A DNA stretch of 64,000 bases. Origin: Methanofollis aquaemaris. GTDB taxonomy: Archaea > Halobacteriota > Methanomicrobia > Methanomicrobiales > Methanofollaceae. The stretch is taken from the NCBI RefSeq assembly GCF_017357525.1, contig NZ_CP036172.1, forward strand, positions 842,561-906,560. Reading direction: 5' to 3'. The translations under genes and the position numbers were made by a program. The notes under the pieces were generated by a model that had not been told where the DNA came from, made no database searches, and saw nothing but the letters and a program-made list of their open reading frames with translations. Of this stretch, positions 40,060 through 51,467 are shown one piece after another (the first letter of the stretch is position 1; every line of letters starts with the position of its first letter).

Positions 40060-40557
40060 ATGAGAGAAGAGCCCTTCACCTGCACCCTCTGTGGCAAGTG
40101 CTGCATGGGCTTCGGGCGCTATATCACCATCATCAAACGGACCGGACCACAGGAGTATCGGTGCCAGGAGACGATCACCAGACAGGAGTTTGCAGCCAGG
40201 GTCGAGGGCGAGTATCTCCCGGTCTTCAGGCGGCCGTCGGTACAGTGGTCACGGCCTGCGGCATGCCCATTTCTCAGAGAGGACAGCGGGAGATATATCT
40301 GCACGATCTATGCCTATCGTCCTGAATTCTGCAGAGAGTATGTCTGCTCCAGGATGCGGGTGCTCAGAGACGGTGAGATCGCAGGCGAACTGAAGGGCAG
40401 GCGGAACCTCAAGACCGGTGACAGGAAGTTGCAGCGGATCTGGGACGAAGAGATCGAGCCGCTCTCCCTGCCTGAGTTCGAATGGGAAAATGAGACCGAC
40501 CGGATCCTCACCGGCGCAGGCTATGAGGCAGTCTGGTACCGACAGCAGGAGGACTGA
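40060..40557 (+). CDS. YkgJ-family cysteine-cluster protein
   Basis: A 165-residue protein with the zinc/iron-chelating CxxCxxCC core: FTCTLCGKCCMGFGRYITI at the N-terminus, then CPFLREDSGRYICTIYAYRP and a final CREYVCSRM. The bound metal and role are unknown. ATG 40060 is chosen since it starts the conserved core; an ATG at 40033 would add nine residues. Its stop is followed after two bases by the ACG codon of the next reading frame. Confidence 0.85.
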   Translation: MREEPFTCTLCGKCCMGFGRYITIIKRTGPQEYRCQETITRQEFAARVEGEYLPVFRRPSVQWSRPAACPFLREDSGRYICTIYAYRPEFCREYVCSRMRVLRDGEIAGELKGRRNLKTGDRKLQRIWDEEIEPLSLPEFEWENETDRILTGAGYEAVWYRQQED

Positions 40558-40559
40558 AC

Positions 40560-40817
40560 ACGGGCGTCCGGGTTCTGGAAGTAAAAGAGGGACTGGTTCC
40601 CTGCCAGGAGGGTAGGAGACGCCCCCTGGACAACTGTCGGTTCTGTGTTCATTCCAGGCGTTTCCGCCTGTGTGACCGGTGGGTGCCCTCGCCGGCCCGC
40701 GCCTACTGCACGCTCCAGCGGGTGACCAATAGAGTCGACTTCACGGGGGTGAGCGCCGTCGAGTGCGACGACGATGGGAACGAGGGGTTTCGGAGCATCA
40801 TGACGGTGATCAGTTAA
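40560..40817 (+). CDS. Cysteine-rich small protein with apparent ACG start
   Basis: An 85-codon open frame with no ATG, GTG or TTG anywhere near its beginning. It reads, from ACG as Met, MGVRVLEVKEGLVPCQEG, then a cysteine set (DNCRFCVHSRRFRLC, AYC, VEC) that looks zinc- or iron-binding. AGGAGG lies at 40547-40552, seven bases upstream of ACG. The upstream YkgJ stop (TGA 40555-40557) is two bases before it. Its stop shares TTAA with the stop of the convergent CopG-type gene, a compact fit that argues the frame is real. The function is unknown. It could instead be a start-damaged gene. Confidence 0.55.
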   Translation, partial: TGVRVLEVKEGLVPCQEGRRRPLDNCRFCVHSRRFRLCDRWVPSPARAYCTLQRVTNRVDFTGVSAVECDDDGNEGFRSIMTVIS

Positions 40818-42849: not shown

Positions 42850-43155
42850 ATGAACGGTGGTATATGTCCAAAATGTGGACTACCCAAAGAACTGTGTATC
42901 TGTGAGGAGGTAGCAAAGGAGCAACAGAGGATCCAGGTAAAGGTCAATCGGCGCCGTTACGGGAAAGAAGTCACCGTCATCGAAGGGCTCGACCCGTACG
43001 ACATTGACCTCAACGACCTCACAAAATTCCTGAAGGCAAAACTTGCCTGCGGTGGAACGGTCAAGGACACGTCCATCGAGCTCCAGGGCAACCATAAAGA
43101 ACGGGTCAAAGACCTGCTCGCACAAAAGGGGTATAAATTGGAGCAGATCAGTTAA
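42850..43155 (+). CDS. SUI1-family translation factor (aIF1/YciH-like)
   Basis: A 101-residue SUI1 protein with an N-terminal zinc-binding-like knuckle ([16 protein letters not shown]) and the SUI1 fold, including [20 protein letters not shown] and [15 protein letters not shown]. Archaeal aIF1 helps select start codons on the 30S subunit. This is notable because the window contains two probable ACG starts. Confidence 0.92.
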
Positions 43156-48851: not shown

Positions 48852-49637
48852 TCAGCGACTTCCTCCAAAGAGAGTGTGCGCAAGTCTGTCGATAAAGTCC
48901 TGTTTTCTCTCCTCGGTCTCCTCTTCATACTCCACACCGGCGATATCGGCGGCAATTCGCCTGAAGGCTCTGGATGCCTCCGAGGTGGGGTACTTGATGA
49001 CGATGGGGGTTTTGTAGGCCGCAGACCTCCTGACATTGGGGTCTTCGGGGATCATGTCGACAACACGCACGCCCAGGACGTCTTCGACGGAATGTCTCCT
49101 GATCTCAGTGTTTTCCATCCCCGAACGGTTGATGATGGCGCCATAGACTGTGCCCCCAACCATCTCGGTGAGGATCTTCGTCTTCAACGCGTCGGCCATC
49201 GAGGAGAGTTCAGGGTTGACGACGAGGATAACTTCGTCGGATATGGCGAGGGCGACAACGCCGTCCTTGCTGATCCCGGCGGCGGCGTCGACGAGGAGGT
49301 AGTCACACCGGTCCACCAGAGACCGCATGACATCTCGCAGGCGATCGGGATCGGCGTTCTGAAATCCCTGAAGAGAGATCCCGCTCGGCACCACTTTGAC
49401 ACCGTTCGGTCCTTCATAGATTGCGTCGTCGATCTTTGCCTGGCCGGCCAGAACTTCATGGAGGGTAACCGGAGCCTCCTCTAACCCAAGCACAAGTCCC
49501 AGATTCGCCATCCCTATGTCAGCGTCAAGGATGTAGGTTTCTTTGCCAAGTTGGGCGAGGGAGGCACCGAGGTTTACGGTGACCGTCGTTTTACCGGTTC
49601 CCCCTTTCCCGGATGCGATCGTGAATGCCCTGATCAA
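48852..49637 (-). CDS. ParA/MinD-type ATPase
   Basis: A 261-residue deviant Walker A ATPase, KGGTGKTTVTVNLGASLAQL, with switch I DADIGMANLGLVLG and DYLLVDAAAGISKDGVVALA (Walker B). The C-terminal part ends in a basic amphipathic helix (RKQDFIDRLAHTLFG) that may hold it to membranes. Such ATPases place pili, flagella and chemoreceptors in cells. It starts at TTG 49637 with AGGTG upstream, and has its own promoter. It heads the minD-DUF-pilB-pilC-pilC unit. Confidence 0.9.
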   Translation of the reverse strand: MIRAFTIASGKGGTGKTTVTVNLGASLAQLGKETYILDADIGMANLGLVLGLEEAPVTLHEVLAGQAKIDDAIYEGPNGVKVVPSGISLQGFQNADPDRLRDVMRSLVDRCDYLLVDAAAGISKDGVVALAISDEVILVVNPELSSMADALKTKILTEMVGGTVYGAIINRSGMENTEIRRHSVEDVLGVRVVDMIPEDPNVRRSAAYKTPIVIKYPTSEASRAFRRIAADIAGVEYEEETEERKQDFIDRLAHTLFGGSR

Positions 49638-49762: not shown

Positions 49763-50359
49763 TTAATGGGGTTTCTTTTCATCCCCAACAAGGAGGTGAT
49801 CCATATTCATCTCTTTGAGGAGCAGAGAGGCATCTTTCTGGAAATCATCCTGAAGGTGTCTGAGTGCCCTGACCGCCGCAGGGTTCAGAACCTCTTTTCT
49901 CTGATGGGCCGACGTATCGGCGGTCCCTCTCTCGGGCCGCCGGGATGCCTCCTCGCCAGCGTCGAGCGTACGGACCATCCGCACCCTGGCCGCGGTCGCT
50001 TTCCCTCCCACCCGGACGGCTCTGACTGTGGTGTTCGCCTCGTGGGTTGCTGCATCGGTATCGGTATACCATGCGGCGTTCGATGGGAGGGCTACATCCA
50101 GGTCCGATAGAGAGCAGGGAAAGAATTCACCCTTTGTGACCTCTTCTCCCGCTTCGATCCTTCCCAGAGCCGCCGCACCGGCAAGTCCACCGTACTCGGC
50201 ACAGGCCGGCCTCCCACACCTGAAGAGTACGGTGCCTCTCGATGCTCCACCGGAGAGTTTCAGCGCTCCTGTGAACGATCTCTTCCTGCACTCGACGACA
50301 AACTCACCGAGAGGGAGGACAAGGTGGCCCCCCGTCCCCGCAGAACGCGGCAGATGCGT
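49763..50359 (-). CDS. DUF2226-like protein with apparent ACG start
   Basis: A 198-codon frame with no in-frame ATG, GTG or TTG until GTG 50011, which would remove the whole conserved domain. From ACG (50359) it continues to GGHLVLPLGEFVVECRKRSF, TGALKLSGG, GTVLFRCGRPACAEYGG and LAGAAALGRIEAGEEVTKGE, matching the beta-rich DUF2226/DUF4388-like type, then a charged C-terminal tail. GGAGG at 50372-50368 lies eight bases upstream. The stop of the preceding gene (TAG 50364-50362) is two bases before ACG. The two junctions above in the operon have the same stop-two bases-start spacing. Unknown function, possibly a signalling adaptor. Confidence 0.6.
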   Translation of the reverse strand, partial: THLPRSAGTGGHLVLPLGEFVVECRKRSFTGALKLSGGASRGTVLFRCGRPACAEYGGLAGAAALGRIEAGEEVTKGEFFPCSLSDLDVALPSNAAWYTDTDAATHEANTTVRAVRVGGKATAARVRMVRTLDAGEEASRRPERGTADTSAHQRKEVLNPAAVRALRHLQDDFQKDASLLLKEMNMDHLLVGDEKKPH

Positions 50360-50361
50360 GC

Positions 50362-51111
50362 CTACCCCCTCCAGGTGAGACTTCGGAGAGCAAGCCTGAC
50401 CAGGCCAAGGTTCGCGTTTGCACTGGCGAGAACACAGATTGAAAGGTCGCCGAAGGGTGCGATGATCAGTTTCCCGCCCGGAGTCTCAAGGATGATCTGG
50501 TCGAGCCCCCCCATCTCCATATCCCCGGCGATCCTTGAACTCGCCCGGAGGAGATCCTCTGAGATCGCTGCGATCCGTTCAAAGTCGGCGGCACCGGCCG
50601 AGTGAACGGCGAAACCTTCATAAAATGCGGAGACCGCCACAACGCCGGGCTGAGAAAGTACAAGGTTGAGGGACTCCTCGTCCAGTTCAGGAACCGTGGC
50701 CCGGGGGGGCGGGGCTTCGGTTTCAGGTTCTGAGATCTCTTCCGGTTGATGGAATTCAACCAGAGACGGGGGCTCTTCAATCTCAGGTTCCATGATCTCC
50801 TTCCCGCCGATCAGACAATCTGTCTCGTTGCACCAGGACAGGGCCAGGGCGTACTCCTCAGGGCTATACCGATTGAGTTCAGAGGAGAGAAACGGCCTCG
50901 CAGAAAGGTACTCCAGAGCGGCATTTCCCTTCAGTTCATGGGAAGCGTCCTGGTACCCCGCTGCCACCGGGTTCCCCTCGTCAGAGAGGACAAAGCCCTC
51001 TCCGTCCTCGGAGTGAATGCGCACGATCGCCTGGAATGCGCTGGTGAAGGGGAGCACCTCCTCCAGCGGGGCCGTCATGCTGCCAAAACTCCGTCCATCA
51101 GGCAGTGTCAT
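50362..51111 (-). CDS. DUF2226-like plus Roadblock/LC7 fusion protein
   Basis: A 249-residue protein in two parts. The N-terminal half (about 15-115) is a DUF2226-like module: FQAIVRIHSEDGEGFVLSDE, GNPVAAGYQDAS, then helices with NRYSPEEYALALSW. A Pro/Glu-rich linker (about 115-150) leads to a C-terminal Roadblock/LC7 domain (about 160-245: GVVAVSAFYEGFAVHSAGAA, QIILETPGGKLIIAPFGDL). Roadblock domains form dimers that act as platforms or GAPs for small GTPases. ATG 51111 is two bases past the preceding stop; a GTG at 51117 also exists. Confidence 0.75.
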   Translation of the reverse strand: MTLPDGRSFGSMTAPLEEVLPFTSAFQAIVRIHSEDGEGFVLSDEGNPVAAGYQDASHELKGNAALEYLSARPFLSSELNRYSPEEYALALSWCNETDCLIGGKEIMEPEIEEPPSLVEFHQPEEISEPETEAPPPRATVPELDEESLNLVLSQPGVVAVSAFYEGFAVHSAGAADFERIAAISEDLLRASSRIAGDMEMGGLDQIILETPGGKLIIAPFGDLSICVLASANANLGLVRLALRSLTWRG

Positions 51112-51113
51112 AC

Positions 51114-51467
51114 TCACAGTGCTGCGGTTATTCGGTCTCTGTTCTTCTTCAGTTCATACCTGATCCTGCCGATATTGACGCCGTCGTTTGCAACGATCGC
51201 GATCAGTTCGTCTTCAGAGAGGGGCGAGAGGAGGATCGGGCCGTTCTGTAATTCCACGAGCATCTGGTTCAATTCGCCCTTGCCAAGTTCGGAGCCCATC
51301 GCCTCGGAGGTACCCATACCTGTCGAGGCCATGGCACCGAGGGCGTCGGTGTCGATCTCACCGGAGACGGCGTCCTCGATTACGAACCCGTCCCTGCCAA
51401 TGACAACCGCTGCAGTCACACCATCCAGTCGTAGAAATTCCATAAGAATCTGTTTCAAGATTTCCAT
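51114..51467 (-). CDS. Roadblock/LC7 domain protein (MglB-like)
   Basis: A 117-residue single Roadblock/LC7 domain: LDGVTAAVVIGRDGFVIEDA, LNQMLVELQNGPILLSPLSE, IAIVANDGVNIGRIRYELKK. In bacteria MglB-type proteins of this fold act with the polarity GTPase MglA. No MglA-like GTPase is visible here, but a MinD ATPase is encoded downstream. It starts two bases after the stop of mvhA, so it is translated from the hydrogenase mRNA. Confidence 0.88.
   Translation of the reverse strand: MEILKQILMEFLRLDGVTAAVVIGRDGFVIEDAVSGEIDTDALGAMASTGMGTSEAMGSELGKGELNQMLVELQNGPILLSPLSEDELIAIVANDGVNIGRIRYELKKNRDRITAAL

Follow-up and report, generated by a model that had tools for sequence, protein, structure and literature searches.

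Organization of the gene 1 locus

The window analyzed here, a 64,000-nucleotide stretch of the Methanofollis aquaemaris genome that spans positions 842561-906560 of a 2,746,416-base contig, contains a minus-strand gene, gene 1, that appears to begin with ACG (Table 1). The gene order is NiFe hydrogenase large-subunit gene, two Roadblock/LC7 genes, gene 1, MinD-type ATPase and T2SSE-type ATPase gene. The frame of gene 1 is open from 50485 down to the TAA ending at 49763, and throughout this frame no ATG, GTG or TTG occurs upstream of GTG 50011, a start at which would yield a product of only 82 aa. A preliminary description of the locus had proposed a hidden 198-codon gene opening at the ACG. 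Its account of the frame is correct base for base, and the TAG-GC-ACG geometry with a two-base gap after the upstream stop, the GGAGG eight bases before the ACG and the two previous operon junctions, TGA-AT-ATG (51467) and TGA-GT-ATG (51111), were all confirmed.

Table 1. Coordinates of gene 1, its neighbors and the further ACG-start candidates
Feature	Position	Strand	Remarks
Gene 1, 198-codon protein gene, DUF4388-like N-terminal domain	49763..50359	-	ACG 50359-50357; TAA 49765-49763
ACG start codon (putative)	50357..50359	-	ACG in four Methanofollis species; ATG/GTG in eight others
Shine-Dalgarno GGAGG of gene 1	50368..50372	-	8 nt 5' of ACG, within 3' end of upstream Roadblock gene
Roadblock/LC7 protein gene, first of pair	51114..51467	-	ATG 51467; TGA-AT-ATG junction
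Upstream gene, Roadblock/LC7 protein	50362..51111	-	ATG 51111; TAG 50364-50362, 2 nt (GC) before ACG
MinD/ParA-type ATPase gene, downstream of gene 1	48852..49637	-	
Gene 2, second ACG-start candidate, 85 codons	40560..40817	+	TGA-AC-ACG junction, same four species; region 40527-40817
Shine-Dalgarno GGAGG of gene 2	40548..40552	+	7 nt 5' of ACG
Gene 3 (L194), third ACG-start candidate, secreted-protein gene	G000:C1:990835-992082	-	ACG at 992061; outside the window; looser scan

The Shine-Dalgarno duplex with the 16S tail was calculated at -10.8 kcal/mol for the gene 1 ACG, compared with -1.5 kcal/mol for a CTG located 15 nt upstream and -2.1 kcal/mol for GTG 50011; the 5th and 1st percentiles of the background at random positions were -9.7 and -11.3. 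As stand-alone evidence, the combination of Shine-Dalgarno sequence and ACG was rejected, being no commoner in the window than expected by chance (GGAGG-N8-ACG, 3 observed and 4.8 expected; GGAGG-N7-ACG, 4 observed and 4.5 expected). It is the comparative evidence described below, not this motif, that bears the case.

In the predicted structure of the gene 1 protein, an N-terminal alpha/beta domain modeled with confidence (about residues 11-100) is joined by a linker of low confidence to a C-terminal helix that is conserved. A weak resemblance to DUF4388 (PF14332) was detected in six of the twelve orthologues compared (best E 6e-4), and the alpha/beta N-terminal domain is common to this family and the gene 1 protein. 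The M. aquaemaris protein differs in having no profile match itself: no Pfam family was matched at E up to 1, the DUF4388 cut-off was not reached, and a fold search against solved structures returned no significant match. Judging by its neighborhood, the protein may act as a partner for the products of the two upstream Roadblock genes. The MinD-like gene at 49637 (-) has an apparent TTG start (TTG-ATC-AGG-GCA-TTC), and the proteins of its relatives begin MFRAY or MIRAY.

Conservation of the ACG codon within Methanofollis

An orthologue of gene 1 was found in all 12 Methanofollis genomes compared. The initiator column is occupied by ACG in M. aquaemaris, M. formosanus and two further species (G003 and G001), by ATG in six genomes and by GTG in two. 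The alignment is ungapped from the start codon onwards, with THLP in the ACG species and MHLP, MRLP or MHFP in the others; the junction consensus of the ACG clade is TAG-G[CT]-ACG-CA[CT]-CT. Beyond the genus, orthologues from other families of the order start with ATG and show M-[QRH]-[LIF]-P aligned at this position; a MinD-type gene is close by in most cases. The alignment of orthologues that the preliminary description had proposed as a check thus gave a positive answer, with ATG (6/12) or GTG (2/12) at the very codon in question. A related-locus search with the single gene 1 protein gave no match, and one with the gene 1 alignment gave three Methanofollis MAGs already among the loci covered.

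The four ACG species lie on one side of a tree branch with support 100/99, so a single change suffices to explain their distribution. Pairwise dS of gene 1 within this clade ranges from 0.55 to 1.36 and dN/dS from 0.19 to 0.44, values that indicate purifying selection on the frame. Relative to G003, the part of gene 1 preceding the first canonical start carries 26, 21 and 51 substitutions at codon positions 1, 2 and 3, with third positions bearing the main share. The conservation of one codon in four species would carry limited statistical weight by itself, as the third base is invariant in 17 of the 57 fourfold-degenerate codons of gene 1 that share their first two bases in the four species; its alignment with the initiator column weighs more. 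The case goes beyond chance because the ACG is aligned with the initiator ATG or GTG of the orthologues and is present in 4/4 species of one clade. The proposal of a hidden gene is therefore supported, its frame being conserved over its full extent and under selection at the protein level.

An assembly error at the ACG was rejected, since four independent genomes agree, two of them deep Illumina assemblies. The genome of M. aquaemaris BCRC 16166T was sequenced by Illumina at about 630x (PMC9583781) and that of M. formosanus DSM 15483T at 337x (PMC9119062). On this agreement, a sequencing error is a very unlikely source of the codon.

Alternative starts and expression routes for gene 1

No canonical start ahead of the conserved domain is common to the four ACG species; a TTG occurs 15 nt upstream of the ACG in two only, and the CTG at +6 of gene 1 is CTT in G001. 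The least improbable alternative, though we give it little credence, is initiation at this -15 position, inside the preceding gene, which would add five residues. An in-frame NTG is found there in 4/4 ACG species (CTG in M. aquaemaris and M. formosanus, TTG in G003 and G001), and TTG is a canonical start in the latter two. However, the position lacks a Shine-Dalgarno sequence (-1.5 kcal/mol), the GGAGG coming after it, and the NTG is a by-product of a conserved TGG (Trp) of the upstream gene and the pyrimidine before it. It is the ACG, not the NTG, that aligns with the ATG or GTG of the relatives.

Two further explanations are decidedly less probable still, and similarly so. With a G-run at the end of the upstream gene (TGG-AGG-GGG-TAG) and both frames open across the overlap, a -1 ribosomal frameshift before the TAG could produce a Roadblock-DUF4388 fusion for which no start codon is needed. 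Against this, the two genes are separate in the relatives, which start the second at ATG or GTG and differ in its frame relative to the first. In G003 and G001 the run reads GGA, a slippery heptamer is not conserved, and the G-run is already accounted for as a Shine-Dalgarno sequence. Alternatively, gene 1 might be decaying after the loss of its ATG, with only the C-terminal 82 residues from GTG 50011, or nothing, being made; the weakness of ACG as a start codon in E. coli speaks for such a course. Yet the frame is intact in four species with dN/dS below 0.45, and the pattern of conservation ahead of GTG 50011 is that of codons. That GTG also has no Shine-Dalgarno sequence, and a start there would, as the preliminary description had pointed out for the conserved part, remove the invariant F29-T30-G31 and C53-A54 together with other residues.

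Editing of the mRNA from ACG to AUG, in the style of plant chloroplasts, is the most remote of the four: ACG is the codon targeted by such C-to-U editing and is common to all three candidate genes described here, but a strong Shine-Dalgarno sequence is kept in two of them, as direct initiation would need, and to our knowledge no mRNA editing of this kind has been described in methanogens. In chloroplasts, it creates the AUG of rpl2, psbL and ndhD (PMC9845219).

Further ACG-start candidates

To extend the analysis, 589 conserved genes in 0.8 Mb of M. aquaemaris (29% of the genome) were scanned for coding conservation against G003 and M. formosanus. An initial scan based solely on protein alignment returned 155 matches, many of them arising from nucleotide conservation of overlapping upstream sequence; a codon-position score, measuring codon-type conservation before the first canonical start, was used instead. 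Gene 1 ranked first of the 589 (score 32), and only eight genes exceeded the threshold.

Second place was taken by gene 2, whose frame from 40560 (+) lies in the same window. It follows a CxxCxxCC-domain gene ending GAG-GAC-TGA, then AC-ACG, and the four species of the ACG clade share TGA-[AC]C-ACG-GGC, while the ATG of the relatives lies two codons further in. In G001, GGC and not GTC stands at the codon corresponding to that ATG, so GTC cannot be the common start of gene 2. Another possible start would be the CTG overlapping the stop (CTGA), but its Shine-Dalgarno sequence would be merely 1 nt away.

Gene 3 was found in a looser scan and matches CARDB. It begins GGAGG-GAGTCAC-ACG, followed by a signal-peptide-like stretch; ACG is present in the same four species, and the relatives have a TTG at an adjoining position. 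No upstream gene was evident in the 400 nt examined, hence translational coupling may not be needed for such a start. Gene 3 is the weakest candidate of the three because it is the least diverged (dS 0.21-0.32). Together, the three candidates make up 0.5% of the genes examined, a lower bound, as the scan is blind to ACG starts with a canonical codon nearby.

An OtsA-like gene resembling trehalose-6-phosphate synthase (L208, G000:C1:1025932-1028247 (-), outside the window) was found in the four-species clade only. It lacks any ATG, GTG or TTG ahead of the conserved part, nor is an ACG conserved, and on the latter ground it was rejected as a further case.

Initiation machinery

The 30 best of 45 tRNA matches in M. 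aquaemaris include two genes for an initiator tRNA, the anticodon being CAU in each, and a tRNA-Thr with anticodon CGU that looks like an ordinary elongator. A dedicated initiator with anticodon CGU was consequently rejected on these 30 best of the 45 matches. The aIF1 gene of the window (42850-43152, +) encodes R in the ACG clade versus K in the rest of the genus, just before RRYGK; this difference was rejected as a cause, since R is common across the order. Nothing unusual was thus seen in the initiator tRNAs or aIF1.

Discussion

Comparison of the sequences establishes that gene 1 is real and selected as a protein, that ACG is conserved at its initiator column and that a Shine-Dalgarno sequence is in place. 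The best explanation, which we hold with considerable confidence, is that gene 1 is protein-coding and that ACG serves as a conserved near-cognate start read by the ordinary initiator. We infer that initiation does occur at the ACG, with Met as first residue, at low efficiency and with some coupling to the upstream gene. One T-to-C change would have turned ATG into ACG in the ancestor of the four species, and the codon would have been kept since. Initiation would be positioned by the strong Shine-Dalgarno sequence within the last part of the Roadblock gene upstream, and the ordinary initiator Met-tRNA (CAU) would accept a C-A mismatch at the second base of the codon, the output probably being low. 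If the ACG is read as Met, the expected N-terminal Glu-C peptide is MHLPRSAGTGGHLVLPLGE.

The stop codon 2 nt before the ACG is probably of help, and it is plausible that ribosomes terminating there are passed on to the ACG. In archaea, very short stop-start distances favor reinitiation, and the gap at gene 1 is within the range where coupling was measured in the termination-reinitiation pairs of Haloferax and E. coli (PMC10666635). Gene 1 differs from these pairs in that its start is ACG, and with gene 3 lacking an evident upstream gene, coupling may not be what enables such a start.

Two observations from other organisms were counted against an ACG start: in one study, the codon gave 0.1-1.5% of the ATG level in E. 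coli (PMC6925171), and Sulfolobus aIF1 is reported to favor discrimination against non-canonical starts (PMC6237735). The starts given in a review of archaeal initiation are AUG, GUG and UUG (PMC7531240), and a Ribo-seq account of M. mazei includes some CTG starts, with ACG absent from it (PMC11456600). Among the start-codon switches covered by a survey that relies on annotation are changes of AUG to GUG, UUG, CUG and AUU (PMC5622118). The literature searched, largely that outside subscription journals, yielded no account of an ACG start conserved among archaea.

The gene 1 ACG resembles the near-cognate starts of bacteria and archaea (GUG, UUG, rarely CUG and AUU) in being a one-base variant of AUG that comes with a Shine-Dalgarno sequence, stands in the place of the ancestral ATG and presumably uses the ordinary initiator tRNA. 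It differs in that the middle base is changed and in that gene callers do not offer this codon. Eukaryotes and viruses are known to initiate at the same codon (e.g., Peabody 1987, cited in PMC9845219), and archaeal aIF1, aIF1A and aIF2 are homologous to eukaryotic factors (PMC6412873). In contrast to the eukaryotic and viral cases, initiation here would be guided by a Shine-Dalgarno sequence within an operon without scanning, and the ACG is conserved and seems to be the only start that a cellular gene has. Near-cognate starts as such are already known; what appears to be new, judged from genome comparison, is the conservation of an ACG start across a clade of four species, together with two further candidates.

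Gene callers offer ATG, GTG and TTG, so genes in a lineage that uses ACG are truncated or overlooked, and such starts are out of reach of annotation-based surveys. The presence of ACG in four species against ATG or GTG in eight close relatives provides a natural comparison for the strictness of start-codon choice in archaea, whose initiation machinery is a relative of the eukaryotic one. If several genes use ACG, archaeal start-codon relaxation becomes directly testable. Whether ACG has become established in this Methanofollis clade as a fourth start codon, with several genes relying on it, some of them at stop-NN-ACG junctions and others behind leaders of their own, is in our estimate evenly balanced. 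Should this be true, three candidates in 29% of the genome would point to about ten in each genome, none of them read correctly by present gene finders.
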